Shown: positions 22,245 to 55,396 of the stretch, in pieces
Layout: the number at the start of each line of letters is the position of its first letter
Numbering within the stretch: position 1 is the stretch's first letter
From: Methanocellales archaeon
GTDB taxonomy: Archaea; Halobacteriota; UBA148
Assembly (NCBI GenBank): GCA_028715985.1
Contig: JAQUQR010000004.1
Span: 1-64,000 of the forward strand
Length of the DNA stretch: 64,000 nucleotides
Direction: 5' to 3'
Made by a program: the position numbers and the translations under genes
The notes under the pieces: generated by a model
What the model saw: only the letters and a program-made list of their open reading frames with translations
Database searches by the model: none
What the model was told of the DNA's origin: nothing

Positions 22245-22284
22245 AATACCATAAAATAAAACATGTGAAGGAGATGTGGATAAT

Positions 22285-23082
22285 ATGGATTGGGGTATGG
22301 AAAACAGGCTTTCAAGGCTAATTCAACCTGATGGTAGGGCTCTTTTTTTGCCCATAGATCACGGATATTTTCAAGGACCGACACGTAAATTAGAGGAGCC
22401 AGGCAAAACGGTTGAACCCCTGCTACCTTATGCAGATGCCATCATGCTTACAAGGGGAATACTGCGTACGTGTGTGGATCCCATGAACTCCAAACCGATT
22501 ATTCTCAGGGTATCCGGTGGCACGAGCATGGTCGGAGAGGACTTGGCTAATGAGGGAATTATCACTTCCGTGAGAGATGTCATCAGGCTCAATGCGAGCG
22601 CAGTGTCTCTTTCCATCTTCGTTGGCAGCAAATACGAGCATGAATCGCTGCTAAATCTTTCCAACCTGGTTAACGAGTGCGAGGAGTACGGCATTCCAGT
22701 GATGGCGGTCACAGCCGTGGGTAAAGAGCTGGAAAAGCGTGAGGCACGATATCTTGCTTTATGTTGCAGGATTGCTGCCGAGTTGGGCGCAAGGGTGGTA
22801 AAAACGTACTATTGTAAAGAAGGTTTTGAAAAGGTGGTCCATGGCTGCCCCGTACCGGTGGTTATCGCTGGTGGGCCTAAGGTGGAGTCCGAGCTGGAGG
22901 TCTTCGAGTTTATTCATGACGGCATCCAGAAAGGCGCCATAGGCGTAAATTTGGGAAGAAACGTATGGCAAAATGAACACCCGGTAGCAATGATCAGGGC
23001 TATTCGATCCATAATTCATGAAGATTGCACCCCGAAAGAGGCGCATGATTTGTTCAACAGCCTTAAGAAGGGCAAGCAGTAG
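22285..23082 (+). CDS. LsrF-like class I aldolase/thiolase (DhnA/FbaB family)
   Basis: 265 residues from ATG 22285; the site aaggag (22268-22273) is too close to GTG 22276 but fits the ATG. It is similar throughout to bacterial LsrF (3-hydroxy-5-phosphonooxypentane-2,4-dione thiolase): DWGMENRLSRL, LPIDHGYFQGPT, the Schiff-base strand VVKTYYCKEGFE with Lys and CPVPVVIAGG. Related archaeal enzymes include fructose-bisphosphate aldolase and the AroA'-type ADH synthase, so the substrate is uncertain. No Lsr transport genes accompany it, which argues against autoinducer-2 uptake. It is the last chromosomal gene before the cassette array. Confidence 0.82.
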   Translation: MDWGMENRLSRLIQPDGRALFLPIDHGYFQGPTRKLEEPGKTVEPLLPYADAIMLTRGILRTCVDPMNSKPIILRVSGGTSMVGEDLANEGIITSVRDVIRLNASAVSLSIFVGSKYEHESLLNLSNLVNECEEYGIPVMAVTAVGKELEKREARYLALCCRIAAELGARVVKTYYCKEGFEKVVHGCPVPVVIAGGPKVESELEVFEFIHDGIQKGAIGVNLGRNVWQNEHPVAMIRAIRSIIHEDCTPKEAHDLFNSLKKGKQ

Positions 23083-23166
23083 TTAATAATGCGCACGGAA
23101 CGACTGAAGGCCACGTGCCCGACCATAAATACTCCATCAAAGGTGTTTGGGTGAAGGAGTAATAAA

Positions 23167-23259
23167 ATGTTGTGGCGATACAGGCGAATAAAGCATGGCA
23201 GAGATAAAGACCTAAGCAAGATAAAGAGTCCTTTAGATAGTTTAGGTGTGAAGAGGTGA
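23167..23259 (+). CDS. Possible 30-residue basic peptide
   Basis: The frame MLWRYRRIKHGRDKDL... ends GVKR and has a good ribosome site (aaggag) before the ATG. It is rich in Arg and Lys and has no known family. It is too short to separate from chance with certainty. It lies between the LsrF-like gene and the left end of the cassette array. Confidence 0.3.
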   Translation: MLWRYRRIKHGRDKDLSKIKSPLDSLGVKR

Positions 23260-23278
23260 AAACGAAGAAATAGTTCAG

Positions 23279-23334
23279 ATATAACACCAAAATGGAATGA
23301 TATACGAACCAAGTTCTGATATAAGGAGTTATAC
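23279..23334 (+). other. Left boundary site of the cassette array (attI- or attC-like)
   Basis: The 56-base segment starts with ATATAAC (23279-23285) and ends with the core site GTTATAC (23328-23334), cut expected between G23328 and T23329. Its left 7-mer is the exact complement of the GTTATAT found at the right end of the array (26431-26437), as if the three cassettes had been inserted between G and TTATAT of one ancestral site. The interior pairs poorly, so it may be a degenerate attC, an attI or a secondary site. Confidence 0.6.
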
Positions 23335-23370
23335 GCAATGTTCTCATCAATATAAATGGAGGGTAATACA

Positions 23371-23778
23371 ATGTGGCATCTGGATGACGAAACTAAATAC
23401 GTGAAAGTGCACTCGTTTACTTTGCCTGAAGCATTTACCTATGCGGATACAAGAGAGGGCCAGACTGACAAGGATAAAAGAGAACGTATCCGAGCCAAAG
23501 CTGCTGAAGATTTTCCTAATAACATTCCTCCTGTTAAATGGTGGGCATTTCGTATCTCTGTCAAAAAATCGGGCAATAGGCCTTTCGATATTGAAAACGT
23601 TCCCAAGCTTATTGTAGATGCGTTCTGCGAATGGCAAATTCAGAAAGATGCGTCAGAGTATATAAAACTAGGTCTCTTTGAAGATGATACTATTGATTTC
23701 GTGAGGGTAATTGAAGTTGGTGGAATGCGGAGTCAAGAGGAGAACACCACCCAAGTGGAGATCTTCGGATGCAAGTAA
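23371..23778 (+). CDS. Cassette 1: RusA-like protein
   Basis: 135 residues from ATG 23371, which has an ideal ribosome site ggaggg (23358-23363) 7 bases upstream. The segment RPFDIENVPKLIVDAF (70-85) followed by GLFEDDTIDFVRVIEVG (101-117) matches the RusA layout: an Asp-x-x-Asn...Lys...Asp-Ala helix, then an acidic Asp-Asp pair that binds metal. RusA enzymes cut Holliday junctions and are usually phage-borne. Here the gene is alone in a cassette with its own ribosome site but no obvious promoter. The overall similarity is modest, so the function is a fold-level inference. Confidence 0.6.
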   Translation: MWHLDDETKYVKVHSFTLPEAFTYADTREGQTDKDKRERIRAKAAEDFPNNIPPVKWWAFRISVKKSGNRPFDIENVPKLIVDAFCEWQIQKDASEYIKLGLFEDDTIDFVRVIEVGGMRSQEENTTQVEIFGCK

Positions 23779-23790
23779 GAAGAACACAGC

Positions 23791-23882
23791 GTATAACACA
23801 GCATAAAAGGTTCGTGCCTTACGGCACTCACCCAAATCCTTCACTCATACTCAGGACTTCCTTTATGCTGAAACCGTTAGGC
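23791..23882 (+). repeat. attC-like site A (end of cassette 1)
   Basis: 92 bases. Outer cores are GTATAAC (23791-23797) and GTTAGGC (23876-23882). The inner arms CAGCATAAAAGG and CCTTTATGCTG pair along their length with one unpaired A, the extrahelical base typical of attC. The central part has hairpin GTGCC/GGCAC and the string ttcgtgccttacggcact, shared with site B. Confidence 0.85.
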
Positions 23883-23915
23883 GAAAGTATCTCCAATTAA
23901 TGGAAGGGAACTAAC

Positions 23916-24929
23916 ATGACCAATTTAAGGACGCTCAAATACCTGCTAAATTACAATGATTTGACAGATGATTGGAACCTTTCCTATGGTATCACAAAAA
24001 ACCGAAGCGATGCACTACTCACCAGTCCTAAACATTCCTTTTTTAATCCACTTTCAGAAACAGCGCTAACACTATTCTTACTTGGGAATATAGACGGATG
24101 GAAGCAAATTGGAACACTAAATATTTTCCCAAGAGATAAGGATTCTAAATGGAATAAAACTTTTTTTGATAATATTCGTTCATCCATAAATATTTTCAAT
24201 AATATCCCCTCAAGAGATAATTTATGGCTTTATAACAGAGAATTTAAAGAGAAAATTTTCGGGAGTGATGAAATAGACATCCACAGATCAATTCTTTTGT
24301 TTGAATTCGAAATGATGAATAGTGCCTTTCATCCCGTGCAACGTAAGGCATTTAAAGATCTTTCTTTCGTTGCTATTAGAAATATGAGAAAATGGTCTAA
24401 GTTTGATGCTGTGCTTATAGTACCCAACGAGAAATTATTTATTTTCTTTGAATCAAAATTAACCAGCGATATCTCTCAAAATACAAAGAAATATCCATAT
24501 ATCAATCAAATTATGCGAAATCTTGAATCTGCTTTTCTTTTAACTAATCATCGAAACAGTCTCTACAAAGATTGGAAATTTAGATATGTTTTCATATGTC
24601 CAAGAAAAATTGATCAATATAGGTTGACGCGTTATTCTTGGGTATTAAATTCTATTGAGAAAAGTATATCTATTTTTAGGGAAATTATAAACAATGAGTA
24701 TGAATCTTCAATCAATAAAGAATGCTACTCGGAATTTGAATTATTCGCAAGGCAAATTCCTAGCTGTATTATCAAAGTTTATTGGGATGATATCGGCAAC
24801 ATATTAGAAAGTAAAGACCGAAAATTTTTCAACAATTATCTTGACCGTTTAGAAGGTGCAGGTTTAGAAGAAGAAAAAATCGAAAACATAAAGGAAAGAT
24901 TTAGAAAGGTAGGAATGAACGTCAGTTAA
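23916..24929 (+). CDS. Cassette 2: PD-(D/E)XK-like nuclease family protein
   Basis: 337 residues, strongly AT-rich compared with flanking chromosomal genes. A nuclease-like core is visible: KFDAVLIVP with Asp164, then LFIFFESKLTSDIS with Glu179-x-Lys181, followed by a helix containing NQIMRNLESAF. This D...E-x-K spacing fits the PD-(D/E)XK fold found in restriction and repair nucleases. The N-terminal 140 residues are unassigned. As cargo of a mobile cassette, a defence role is plausible but not shown. The AT-rich composition suggests a source different from the host. Confidence 0.65.
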   Translation: MTNLRTLKYLLNYNDLTDDWNLSYGITKNRSDALLTSPKHSFFNPLSETALTLFLLGNIDGWKQIGTLNIFPRDKDSKWNKTFFDNIRSSINIFNNIPSRDNLWLYNREFKEKIFGSDEIDIHRSILLFEFEMMNSAFHPVQRKAFKDLSFVAIRNMRKWSKFDAVLIVPNEKLFIFFESKLTSDISQNTKKYPYINQIMRNLESAFLLTNHRNSLYKDWKFRYVFICPRKIDQYRLTRYSWVLNSIEKSISIFREIINNEYESSINKECYSEFELFARQIPSCIIKVYWDDIGNILESKDRKFFNNYLDRLEGAGLEEEKIENIKERFRKVGMNVS

Positions 24930-24960
24930 TATGCACCAATATAAAATAACGATACCTTCG

Positions 24961-25051
24961 CCTAACAGATCGTATCTGGCTTCGTGCTTTCGGCACTCCG
25001 CCCCAATTCCTCGCTACGCTCGGAACTTCAGATACGCTCAGCCGTTATCTG
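24961..25051 (+). repeat. attC-like site B (end of cassette 2)
   Basis: 91 bases. The left core GCCTAAC (24961-24967) is complementary to the core GTTAGGC that begins cassette 2; the right core is GTTATCT (25045-25051). Inner arms GATCGTATCTG and CAGATACGCTC pair with one mismatch. The centre (cttcgtgctttcggcactcc) closely resembles site A. Confidence 0.88.
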
Positions 25052-25138
25052 CAATTGCGGGCAAAATAAGGGAAGAATACGGAGGGTAACTGTACGCACA
25101 TAAGATGAGGGTCATAACTTGTTACAGGAGGCTGTTAT

Positions 25139-26278
25139 ATGCCTTGGGATGTTTTTATATGCTATGCGAGTGAGGACAAAGAATCTCTCGTACGACCGCT
25201 TGCTGACGAGCTACGTCGTAGAGGTCTATCGGTTTGGTATGATGAGCTTTCACTCACAGTCGGCGATAGTCTACGAAGATCGATAGATCGTGGTTTAGCG
25301 CAATCTCAATTTGGCATCGTTGTGCTTAGTACGCACTTTTTTAAGAAGGAATGGCCACAAAAAGAAGTGGATGGTTTAGTCACTCGTGAAACAGGTGGAG
25401 TCAAAGTTATACTACCAGTTTGGCACAATATTGGGAAGGAAGAGGTTGCCCGCTACTCACCCATGCTTGCTGATCGTGTTGCTGTATCCACTTCTAAAGG
25501 CTTGGAATATGTTGTTACTGAGCTGTTTCGGGCTATCCAACAAAGTAAGAAAGGGAAATCCGATACCCCCGAAGTGCAAAACTCAGCCCATCTAGAAGCT
25601 TCTTTCCACGTAGGAAATGAAGCCAATTTGATCGGAACCATAGAGGATATAGAAGCAACTGTAGATGAAGCCTTATATAGGATTGAACAAGGTTATGATC
25701 CACCATTTACAATAGAGATTGCTGCGGTAGACAATGTTAGTCGCGAGTTTGCTGAGATAAGTCAGAAAGTCTCCCCGTCACCTGAAGATCGGAGAGAAAG
25801 GATCCATCTAAAAAAAGAATTAGATCGGCTTCTTGATGCCAGAGATCGCGTTAAGCGCGGGGTATTATACATCCTTTGTGAACAGTCTCTGAAGCCTTAC
25901 ACATCTTCGAGTAGGAGAATCACTAGATGTATTATGGGATACTTTTGGTTGTTTTCTAGGGAGGCGCATACTCCTTTTAACCCTTGGAAGCTTGGCTTTA
26001 CAGGGTATGACCTATATCGATTCCGTTCACCCAAGTTGTCTACTACCATCTGGCTGAATCAAGAAGAGGATGCCTTGGTAAGCAAACTAGATCCAACAGG
26101 CATAACTTTTCAAATGGAAGCGCGATGGACTGTCCTTGAATTGCCAGACGATGTGTTACTATATAAAGCAATCCCGCAAATTGTCTGTGAGGTAATAAAA
26201 GCTAAGGATAGACAAATTGAAAATCCTCATGGAGACAATCTGTTGGATTTATCCAAATGGTATTTCGGGTTGCACTGA
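25139..26278 (+). CDS. Cassette 3: TIR-domain protein
   Basis: 379 residues, with ribosome site aggagg 7 bases before the ATG. The TIR domain spans about 1-135: DVFICYASEDKESLVRPLADEL, GLSVWYDELSLTVGDSLRRSID, FGIVVLSTHFFKKEWPQKEVDGL. The Glu in WPQKE (residue 76) is at the position of the catalytic Glu of NAD-cleaving TIR enzymes. A helical linker (200-245) leads to an unassigned C-terminal domain of about 130 residues that may sense or bind ligand. Prokaryotic TIR proteins commonly act in abortive anti-phage defence by depleting NAD. It is carried alone in its cassette. Confidence 0.85.
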   Translation: MPWDVFICYASEDKESLVRPLADELRRRGLSVWYDELSLTVGDSLRRSIDRGLAQSQFGIVVLSTHFFKKEWPQKEVDGLVTRETGGVKVILPVWHNIGKEEVARYSPMLADRVAVSTSKGLEYVVTELFRAIQQSKKGKSDTPEVQNSAHLEASFHVGNEANLIGTIEDIEATVDEALYRIEQGYDPPFTIEIAAVDNVSREFAEISQKVSPSPEDRRERIHLKKELDRLLDARDRVKRGVLYILCEQSLKPYTSSSRRITRCIMGYFWLFSREAHTPFNPWKLGFTGYDLYRFRSPKLSTTIWLNQEEDALVSKLDPTGITFQMEARWTVLELPDDVLLYKAIPQIVCEVIKAKDRQIENPHGDNLLDLSKWYFGLH

Positions 26279-26343
26279 CACGTGGGAGTGGAGTGATAGT
26301 CAAACTCTCAAATATCATTTTGAAAGGATATGCCCGCAACAGC

Positions 26344-26437
26344 AGATAACACAGCATATACGCTGCTGGCTTCGCCCTTGCCCTTCGGGACATTGCTCCC
26401 TTCGGTCGCAACATCGTATATGCTAGGAGCGTTATAT
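26344..26437 (+). repeat. attC-like site C (end of cassette 3)
   Basis: 94 bases. The left core AGATAAC (26344-26350) is complementary to GTTATCT that begins cassette 3; the right core is GTTATAT (26431-26437). Inner arms AGCATATACG and CGTATATGCT are perfect complements over 10 bases. No further cassette follows; the next 270 bases hold no gene. Confidence 0.88.
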
Positions 26438-26710
26438 ACAATCGGCTTCGGGACGCAAGAATTATAAATTAGTTTAATTTAAATAAATATACGGTGGGTG
26501 TAAAAATATAGGTTTTGGAACATAGGTAGATTTAAAAATGCCAGGTATATGAAGTCAATAATGCTGTTTTTCTTTTATTTTAATGATCCAACTTTTGTTT
26601 TAGCAGCAATCAAATAAAAAATAATTCTGTTGTATCTTTCTCTCTGGTTACGATACATTTAAATAAAAAACGATATTACCCCTCATTAAAAATAACGGGG
26701 GCAATTAGAT

Positions 26711-27274
26711 ATGAATTGGTTATTGACAATAGCAGTAATAATAGTGCTGATATTTGTCGGCATATTACTTTGGTTATGGAGCTTTTACAACAGAATGATT
26801 AGATCTGAGAATCGCATAGATAATGCATGGGCACAAATCGACGTACAACTTAAACGAAGAGCGGACCTCATCCCAAATCTGATGGAAACCGTCAAAGGCT
26901 ACATGAATCATGAGCGTGGAACCCTTGAGGCTGTTACAAAAGCGCGGGCTTCTATAATGAGTGCGAAGACGCCACAGGAAAGCATGGATGCAAACAATAT
27001 GTTAACCGGAGCATTGAAAACACTTTTTGCTGTTGCAGAAAGTTATCCTGATCTTAAAGCAAGTCAGAACTTCCTGAGTCTTCAAGACGAATTGACACAT
27101 ACCGAAGAGAAAATAGCCTATTCAAGACAACACTTCAACGATTCAGTATTAGTATTTAACAATACCATAGAGACGTTCCCCGGAGTGGTATTTGCTAAAA
27201 GAATGGGCAAAAAAGAAAAGCAGATGTTACAAATCCCGGAAGCATCCAGAGAAGTACCGAAAGTGGCATTCTAA
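26711..27274 (+). CDS. lemA: LemA family protein
   Basis: 187 residues. One N-terminal membrane helix (4-24) is followed by the LemA helical bundle: SENRIDNAWAQIDVQLKRRADLIPNL, MNHERGTLEAVTKARA, FNDSVLVFNNTIETFPGVVFA. LemA proteins are membrane-anchored with the bundle outside or in the periplasm-like space and are often encoded with HtpX-type proteases, as here. Role in envelope maintenance is inferred. The promoter region is AT-rich upstream of 26701. Confidence 0.93.
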   Translation: MNWLLTIAVIIVLIFVGILLWLWSFYNRMIRSENRIDNAWAQIDVQLKRRADLIPNLMETVKGYMNHERGTLEAVTKARASIMSAKTPQESMDANNMLTGALKTLFAVAESYPDLKASQNFLSLQDELTHTEEKIAYSRQHFNDSVLVFNNTIETFPGVVFAKRMGKKEKQMLQIPEASREVPKVAF

Positions 27275-27291
27275 ATTTTTTCTTTGATACC

Positions 27292-28197
27292 ATGGAAAAA
27301 CAAATGCTGTTAGAGGACCACATAAGGAAAAACAAGCGGGACACTGTACTTATCTGTATGTTCATGGTCCTTCTTCTTTTTAGCGTGATATTTGCCATAG
27401 GTTTGGCACTAGGCTCCCCTCCTTATTTTACCATAGCAATCGCTTTACCCATAGCCTTGTTTTACATTATGATCACCTATTCTTTTTCCGTTCAGACTGT
27501 CATTTCTGCTGCCGGTGCTAGACCCGCAAATCCACAAGTTCGTGAAGAGAAACTGCTGATTTATAAAGCTGAAGAAATGGCTATCGCTGCGGGTTTGCCG
27601 CCGCCTAAGGTTTATGTTCAGGATTCAAAGGACATCAATGCCTTTGCGACAGGTAAGAAGCCGGAAGAATCCATTATCTGTGCTACTACCGGTGCTATTC
27701 GGCAATTGAACAATGAGGAGCTTGAAGGCGTTATTGGTCATGAGATGAGCCATATAAAGAATCGGGATATTCTTGTGATGACTGTTACCGTGGCAGTGGT
27801 TGGAACCATTGCTATTCTCGCCGAAATAGCCTTGAGGTCTCTATTCTGGAGCGGTGGTGGACGAGGAAGCAAAAAAGGCAGCGGTGGAATAGTCCTCATT
27901 ATAGCCGCTGTTATTTTCATTGTTTTAGCGCCGCTGTTCTCGAGGCTCACTTATCTTGCCATTTCGCGGAGAAGAGAATACCTTGCTGATGCAGATGGGG
28001 CATATCTTACCCGTAATCCCGAGGGTCTTGCGGCGGCTTTGGAGAAAATAAAGAATGATTTGCCTGATGATCCAAAAGGCTCTAAAACGGTTGCTCCGCT
28101 TTACATTGCAAATCCATTTAAGAGGGCTTTACGTAACTCAATTTGGTCAACCCATCCACCCTTGGATGAAAGAATAAGAAGATTAAGATCGATGTAA
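27292..28197 (+). CDS. htpX: HtpX-like membrane zinc metalloprotease (M48)
   Basis: 301 residues, length typical of HtpX. Two N-terminal helices (18-65), the zinc motif HEMSH (150-154), two more helices with a glycine/serine-rich loop between them, and the downstream RREYLADADGAYLT segment that supplies the third zinc ligand (Glu). HtpX degrades misfolded membrane proteins, with the active site in the cytosol. It starts 17 bases after lemA, forming the common lemA-htpX pair. Confidence 0.93.
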   Translation: MEKQMLLEDHIRKNKRDTVLICMFMVLLLFSVIFAIGLALGSPPYFTIAIALPIALFYIMITYSFSVQTVISAAGARPANPQVREEKLLIYKAEEMAIAAGLPPPKVYVQDSKDINAFATGKKPEESIICATTGAIRQLNNEELEGVIGHEMSHIKNRDILVMTVTVAVVGTIAILAEIALRSLFWSGGGRGSKKGSGGIVLIIAAVIFIVLAPLFSRLTYLAISRRREYLADADGAYLTRNPEGLAAALEKIKNDLPDDPKGSKTVAPLYIANPFKRALRNSIWSTHPPLDERIRRLRSM

Positions 28198-47093: not shown

Positions 47094-47693
47094 ATGGACC
47101 TGATAAAACTATCTAAACGGAAAGAGTATTTTGTCGAGAAGTCAGAGTATGCTTGGTTAACTCTCGCTAAGTTCTTCGCTCCATTCGGCATAGCAGGCAT
47201 TGTTGCCCTGTTGATCATCTGGACTGATTCTTTTGAATTTGGTGGTGTAGTTCTAAGCTATTTCTTTCCGCCTACATCCCTGTTGGGTAGGCTATGGGCG
47301 ATACCCTTCGGTTTGAGATTGGGCCTAAGCCTATGGGAAGCCATGATTGCAGTCGTATTCGTAGATTTAATTACTAGCCTTTTTATGGTGTTGAACTTTG
47401 ATATAGCCCTAAAAATTCCCTTTCTGGGCAAGCTGATCTCGAAAGCAGAGAGACAAGGGCGAGAGTATTTGAAAAAATATCCTTTTATCAGTAGATTAGC
47501 CTTTTTAGGTATCGCACTTTTCATAGCGCTTCCCTTCAATGGAACCAATGCCGTGATAGGGTCTATTATCGGCAGGATCATTGGTATGAAGCCATGGTAT
47601 GCGTGGTCAGCAGTAGCGATGGGCTCGGTTTTAGGATGTTTACTTGTCGCAATTCCTGTTTATGGCGCATACCTTGCCATCCCCGGCTCATAG
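47094..47693 (+). CDS. Small multidrug-export family membrane protein (COG2426)
   Basis: 199 residues with five to six membrane helices; [22 protein letters not shown] and the preceding [11 protein letters not shown] are typical of the small multi-drug export protein family. Function in transport is assigned by family only. The stop overlaps the end of the tfb gene on the other strand by six bases. Confidence 0.8.
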
Positions 47694-48683
47694 GATGATC
47701 TCAATGCCAAGCTCCTCTGCTAACTCCTTGTATCTGTTTCTTATCGTGACTTCAGTAACGCCTGCCACATCTGCTACTTCTCTTTGCGTCCTTCTTTCTC
47801 CGCTAAGAAGGGATGCGATGTAGATAGCTGCTGCTGCAACACCTGTCGGCCCTCTTCCTGAGGTCAGCTCTTTCTCTCCTGCCTGTCTTAGGATCTCGAC
47901 TGCCTTGGATTGTACCTCCCCCTTCAGATTTAGACCTGATGCGAATCTTGGAACATAATCTATGGGGGAGGTCGGCATGAGAGTAAGTCCAAGCTCCCTT
48001 GATATGAATCTGTAAGTGCGCCCGATCTCCTTTCTTCCAACTCGTGAGAACTCTGATATTTCGTCCAATGTTCTGGGCACGTTGCATTGTCTACAGGCTG
48101 CATATAATGAGGCTGCTGAAACTCCCTCAATGCTGCGACCTCTGATCAGATTTTGGTCTACTGCCCTCCTGTAAACAACTGCAGCAGCCTCTCGAACATC
48201 TCTGGAAAGTCCCAAGGCTGATGCGAGCCTATCCAATTCTGATAACGCAAAAGCTAAGTTACGCTCTGTTGCGTTGCTCACTCTTATTCTGCGTTGCCAC
48301 TTTCTCAGTCTATACAACTGGGCTCTACTCCTCGATGATAACGACTTACCGTATGAATCTCTGTTTCTCCAGTCGATCATCGTGCTCAGCCCTTTGTCAT
48401 GTATGGTGTAGGTCATCGGTGCTCCTACTCTGGAACGCTTCATTCGTTGATCGTAATCGAAGGCTCGCCATTCAGGTCCCATATCTATGAAGTCCTCTTC
48501 GATGACGAGACCACATTCTTCACAGATTAGCTCGGCTCTCTCATAATCATGCACAAGTTGAGTGCTTCCGCATTCCGGGCATTCCGTCTTGGTTTCCTCG
48601 TATTCGCCCAGACCCTTGCGTCCTTTTTTTATTTCATTCGACCTTTTGGTCTCTTCCATTTGTTCATCTTGTAAAGCGTACAT
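47688..48683 (-). CDS. tfb: Transcription initiation factor B
   Basis: 331 residues. N-terminal zinc ribbon [22 protein letters not shown]-reader/linker [21 protein letters not shown], then two cyclin-like repeats, the second ending [16 protein letters not shown]. It recruits RNA polymerase to TBP-bound promoters. The upstream gap holds two TATA-like elements, one a perfect 18-base palindrome atctttatatataaagat (48746-48763). Confidence 0.97.
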
Positions 48684-55312: not shown

Positions 55313-55396
55313 TGCCCCAGCTGGGATTTGAACCCAGGTCTTAGGCTCTCTGCAGATTACCGCAGGCCCAAAGGATATCCCCTACCCTACTGGGGC
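55313..55396 (-). tRNA. tRNA-Arg (anticodon GCG) with 12-base intron
   Basis: Reading the minus strand: acceptor GCCCCAG pairs with CTGGGGC, discriminator A; T-arm CTGGGTTCAAATCCCAG. The anticodon stem TGGGC/GCCTA carries an enlarged loop. It forms a textbook bulge-helix-bulge: CTGC pairs with GCAG, bulges GGT and AGA. Cutting after the second base of each removes taatctgcagag (plus-strand 55348-55359) at position 37/38 and leaves anticodon GCG. The 5' 15 bases overlap the end of leuB, whose TAG stop lies inside the tRNA D-arm. Confidence 0.85.

Follow-up and report, generated by a model that had tools for sequence, protein, structure and literature searches.

Probable remnant of a chromosomal integron with a XerA-like integrase in a Halobacteriota archaeon

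Integrons count among the main routes by which genes are captured. An extra domain, held essential for acting on folded single-stranded sites, identifies their enzyme. Archaeal integrons and CALINs have been published from metagenome-assembled genomes by Ghaly et al. 2022 (PMC9668308), who required an IntI-specific domain profile and recovered six IntIs in 6718 genomes; IntegronFinder calls integrases in the same way, by the IntI-specific domain. The sections of Smyshlyaev et al. 2021 (PMC8138268) on an integron-like subgroup of tyrosine recombinases describe the insertion as not fully conserved. We analysed a 64,000-nucleotide stretch of contig JAQUQR010000004.1 from a Methanocellales archaeon (the window). 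A sequence-only reading of it had proposed that an archaeal chromosome captured integron cassettes, and had mentioned reports of integrons from archaeal metagenome-assembled genomes; such reports date from 2022 and include integrase-less arrays (PMC9668308).

Three cassettes span 23329-26431 on the plus strand, in tandem and in one orientation, each with a single plus-strand ORF (3/3) and each ending in an attC-like site. The sites measure 92, 91 and 94 nt, in agreement with the earlier description of three single-gene cassettes, all facing the same way, with closing sites of 91-94 bases. Cassette 1 (23329-23876) carries an ORF of 140 aa (23356-23778) and cassette 2 (23877-25044) one of 337 aa (23916-24929); neither has a family match in Pfam, and a search for a plasmid homologue of the cassette 2 ORF found none. 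Cassette 3 (25045-26431) encodes a 379-aa TIR domain protein (ORF 25139-26278; PF13676, 3.8e-21; PADLOC PDC-S66, 4.2e-60; ThsB, 4e-39 over the TIR domain), likely a defence effector. Behind it, 26432-26612 on the plus strand holds the right border and a decayed fourth cassette, a remnant of the small-ORF cassette found at this locus in two relatives (G004 and G010); positions 26476-26537 retain 81% identity to the G004 copy (3.7e-11). The array is flanked on the left by a DeoC/LacD-type aldolase gene (22276-23082, plus strand; PF01791, 5.9e-28), which is the left flank in relatives too, and on the right by LemA and M48 peptidase genes (26711-28197, plus strand). An Rfam scan of the window returned only tRNAs. 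At 55313-55396 on the minus strand lies a tRNA gene to which ARAGORN cannot assign an anticodon (gcgg).

The three attC sites lie on the plus strand at 23791-23882 (GTATAAC ... GTTAGGC), 24960-25050 (GCCTAAC ... GTTATCT) and 26344-26437 (AGATAAC ... GTTATAT). Each bottom strand folds into a single long arm that contains unpaired bases. Compared with shuffled sequences, the folding is clearly better at sites 1 and 3 (z -4.5 and -3.6) and weakly so at site 2 (z -1.6; 16 of 200 shuffles equal it), so the arms with unpaired bases noted by the sequence-only reading stand firmly at two sites and weakly at the third. A scan of the window for core boxes plus a stem gave eight plus-strand matches where 2.6 were expected, without significance for any site by itself, and therefore no single attC site counts as proof. 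This leaves a very slim chance that the repeats are other palindromic elements, such as MITE-like ones, that merely resemble attC. Whereas a single attC-like site is not rare, an ordered set of this kind is. The opening core of each cassette complements the inverse core that closes the same cassette in all three cases (G^TTATAC, at 23328, with GTATAAC; GTTAGGC with GCCTAAC; GTTATCT with AGATAAC), and the final core is GTTATAT. Across the window and its relatives, the matching is perfect in 19 of 29 consecutive attC pairs against 2.9 expected and a maximum of 11 in 20,000 permutations, so the core bookkeeping on which the first reading had relied does exceed chance. Site ends match the previous core rather than their own end (19 versus 3 perfect of 29), a pattern that insertion elements would not produce. 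Compensatory changes affect 11 of 12 pairs of the L stem over 80 sites, in an alignment that was itself fitted to the model.

We built two attC models: R1, trained on six sites of this locus, the window's three among them, and R2, trained on 11 class-1-type sites only. On the covariance-model check that the sequence-only reading had put forward, R1 recognised related sites beside integrases elsewhere, and the narrow R2 matched none of the three window sites, which are thus not class-1-like in sequence. Run against class-1 plasmids (E<=10), the archaeal model gave eight matches, four of which coincided exactly with attC, all of them weak (E 0.24-8.8).

The left border of the array bears the trace of an integrase gene. 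A deletion scar at 23194-23273 (plus strand) joins the first codons of such a gene (MAEIK) to its last ~25 codons, KDLSKIKSPLDSL, with the frame broken. In blastn, window positions 23065-23210 correspond to the start of the recombinase gene of a relative, G006, with its upstream DNA (78%, 1.6e-29), and positions 23194-23284 to the 3' end of that gene with the site behind it (86%, 4e-24). The stretch shared by both alignments is a 17-bp imperfect repeat (CATGGCAGAGATAAAGA / CATGTCAGTAATAAAGA); this indicates that recombination between short repeats removed the integrase gene and left a stub ending in KDLSKIKSPLDSL. Directly behind the scar is an attI-like site (23273-23334, plus strand; TTCAGATATAA..CCAAAATGG..GATATACGAA..TTCTGATATAAGGAG^TTATAC), in the same register as the attI-like sites that follow intact recombinases in other genomes. 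An integrase gene thus adjoins attI both here, as a scar, and in G006, at full length. The sequence-only reading had started the array at 23279 (ATATAAC), a position that falls inside the attI-like site and is not an attC; it had also found no integrase, which holds for a working gene but overlooked the scar and attI at this border, as well as the intact copy of the locus in a relative. The evidence supports reading 23329-26431 as an array of integron cassettes in the chromosome of an archaeon, with no working integrase in the window.

The same locus recurs in relatives. Aldolase orthologues with 86-94% identity adjoin it in G003, G004, G006 and G010. G006 (JASEEY010000013.1, 'Methanocellales archaeon', of the same order as the window genome) shares the left border and attI and has, in order, aldolase, recombinase, attI, three cassettes and a dehydrogenase; its recombinase gene is full-length but has an apparent single-base frameshift near the N-terminus, and its cassettes encode an unknown ORF, an acetate-CoA ligase with a downstream ORF, and a PEMT-like methyltransferase. 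G003, a sister species, carries a DUF3800 cassette between the left motif of the window and its right flank, the latter with 86% identity (3.9e-99). In G034, from another family, aldolase stands directly next to dehydrogenase with no array. G002 was considered as a clean empty site and rejected, its aldolase being a 57% identical replacement; in that genome (L036, 4900-5740) the replacement copy runs from codon ~15 and the whole array is gone. The locus is chromosomal, and its cassette content changes between relatives.

These comparisons bear on two other accounts of the array. One, an assembly chimera that joined a bacterial cassette contig to an archaeal bin, is hardly credible. It could draw on the similarity of the cassette 3 TIR domain to bacterial plasmid proteins, but the 142,665-base contig that bears the array also bears a TFIIB gene (47691-48683), its borders recur in independently assembled relatives, and attC and recombinase occur together in the single-contig archaeal genomes G005 and G389. 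The different cassette between the same borders in G003 marks a chromosomal locus rather than a mis-binned contig; it contradicts the mis-binning that the sequence-only reading had named as its possible undoing, and capture by an archaeal chromosome is upheld by TFIIB, by both borders in G003 and by the left border with attI in G006. The other account, insertion of cassettes at secondary sites off target with no resident integron, fits the single attC matches scattered elsewhere in the window genome, but is made very improbable, and is indeed contradicted at this locus, by the scar and attI-like site immediately left of the array, by the syntenic intact copy, and by cassettes at the same locus in G003, G004, G006 and G010. 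With three attC, where a CALIN requires two or more within 4 kb, and an integrase present only as a scar, this is a genuine archaeal array and a CALIN that descends from a complete integron. Our main reading, to which we give a probability of roughly 0.8, is that a sedentary chromosomal integron of a Halobacteriota archaeon survives here in part: an attI-like site and three cassettes remain, and a deletion between two short repeats has removed the adjoining integrase gene, the mechanism being that of a XerA-like integrase.

Other remnants and loci were seen. The rest of the genome, where the earlier reading had proposed a search for intI and more attC, has further attC and a second recombinase stub; an intact recombinase homologue elsewhere in the window's genome was not found at 1e-35. 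This second remnant (G000:C5, 32953-33686; L177:4954-5687) has an attI-like site, one strong attC and a C-terminal recombinase stub of 28 aa with 75% identity. The only other tyrosine recombinase found there with TIGR02249, C7 (340 aa), is only distantly related and has no LRHSFAT motif, and is therefore not a likely enzyme for the cassettes. In a relative (L189, G004:C22, 2312-7166), a recombinase stub and an attI-like site accompany an array of five attC; the integrase has been lost repeatedly, with attI and cassettes left behind. In the single-contig genome G005 (L186, 5387-7275), a frameshifted recombinase precedes attI and attC, close to the end of the contig, and an older C-terminal recombinase remnant lies in tandem ahead of the frameshifted one. 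A Falkowbacteria locus (L147, 7104-10885) has an array of five attC on the opposite strand, beside the 5' end of a recombinase gene that lacks the insertion, which is the classical integron orientation.

What looks new is the integrase of this locus, a tyrosine recombinase of XerA-like type in which the IntI-specific insertion of ~41 residues is missing. The protein scores above the cut-off of NCBIfam NF040815 (recomb_XerA_Arch) and below that of TIGR02249 (integron integrase). Its family has 59-61 residues between the KGRKDR and HxLRHSFAT motifs; IntI1 has 100 between KGSKDR and HTLRHSF, and IntI4 could be aligned only with a 42-residue excess there. A helix at 248-264 is absent from the AlphaFold2 model (mean pLDDT 83.7, pTM 0.52), which in Foldseek matches IntI4 and XerA equally well. 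By sequence the best PDB match is IntI4 (2a3v), and in our tree the branch of IntI1 is long and has no firm placement. Given the XerA cut-off, the short spacing, the missing helix and the Foldseek tie, the enzyme is built like a Xer recombinase and placed like an IntI.

Scanning GTDB genomes for the recombinase yielded 80 archaeal and bacterial loci, 34 of which contained attC (69 sites at E<=0.01); 57 of the 69, in 28 loci, lay downstream of the recombinase and co-oriented with it. R1 matches also appeared directly downstream, on the same strand, of recombinases chosen solely by TIGR02249 score. Among 394 Halobacteriota genomes, attC matches occurred in 90: 25 of 26 with the recombinase, many of the counted copies being broken or at contig ends, versus 65 of 368 without it (p 1e-16 in a Fisher test that ignores relatedness). 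The close subfamily was set at 55% identity or more, a line drawn after the list of matches had been seen, and in a distant subfamily of the same phylum (<=46% identity) 1 of 9 genomes had attC. In the 65 genomes with attC and no recombinase, the sites may be old or mobilised in trans, or the gene may be missing from fragmented assemblies.

Position, conservation and association point to the XerA-like recombinase as the probable enzyme that recombines attC. A canonical IntI, supplied in trans by bacteria or another replicon, could do so instead, with the XerA-like enzyme a bystander or limited to its own inverted-repeat site. IntI1 does recombine archaeal attC in E. coli (PMC9668308), a passage of PMC8138268 describes the insertion as essential for integron function, and attC without an integrase is common in Halobacteriota genomes. 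We nevertheless find supply in trans doubtful: not one of the 394 Halobacteriota genomes reaches the TIGR02249 cut-off for canonical IntI, and in many phyla arrays begin directly behind a XerA-like recombinase and its attI, where the first cassette core holds a fixed place. In relatives, the intact unit comprises integrase, attI and cassettes, in this order, on one strand between the aldolase and dehydrogenase genes. Under our reading of a XerA-like integrase, the enzyme would bind attI at its inverted repeats and attC as a folded bottom strand, and would cut between G and TT of GTTRRRY, so that single-gene cassettes are inserted or excised. The array in the window genome would probably stay fixed unless an integrase is supplied in trans.

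We put at even odds a broader reading, in which XerA-like recombinases without the IntI-specific insertion run a widespread integron class in archaea and many bacterial phyla, recombining folded attC with an attI of dif-like inverted repeats. Domain-based searches would miss such integrases, and many supposedly integrase-less archaeal arrays would then be unrecognised integrons or their remnants. Our literature search, thin in subscription journals and preprints, found no paper that connects attC arrays with XerA-like enzymes. A large family of integrases lacking the extra domain would show how IntI could evolve from Xer recombinases, would explain the orphaned look of archaeal arrays, and would extend integrons through the Halobacteriota, including methane-oxidising archaea.

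Like the archaeal systems of Ghaly et al., those described here have attC arrays mostly without a recognised integrase, and attI comes immediately after the integrase gene; that study required the IntI-specific domain profile, whereas the recombinases here lack the insertion. In the parts of Smyshlyaev et al. 2021 (PMC8138268) that treat the integron-like subgroup, insertion-less members are not linked to attC arrays, as they are here. With XerA, the enzyme of archaeal chromosome dimer resolution, the recombinase shares NF040815 membership, motif spacing and a site of inverted repeats, but it lies beside attI with attC arrays and has the IntI-like KSPLD at its end. With bacterial chromosomal and class 1 integrons (IntI4, IntI1), the locus has in common attI, the G^TT core, single-gene cassettes and the R and L boxes of attC, whereas the motif spacing is 59 here against 100 in IntI1, and the integrase gene here is co-oriented with its cassettes.
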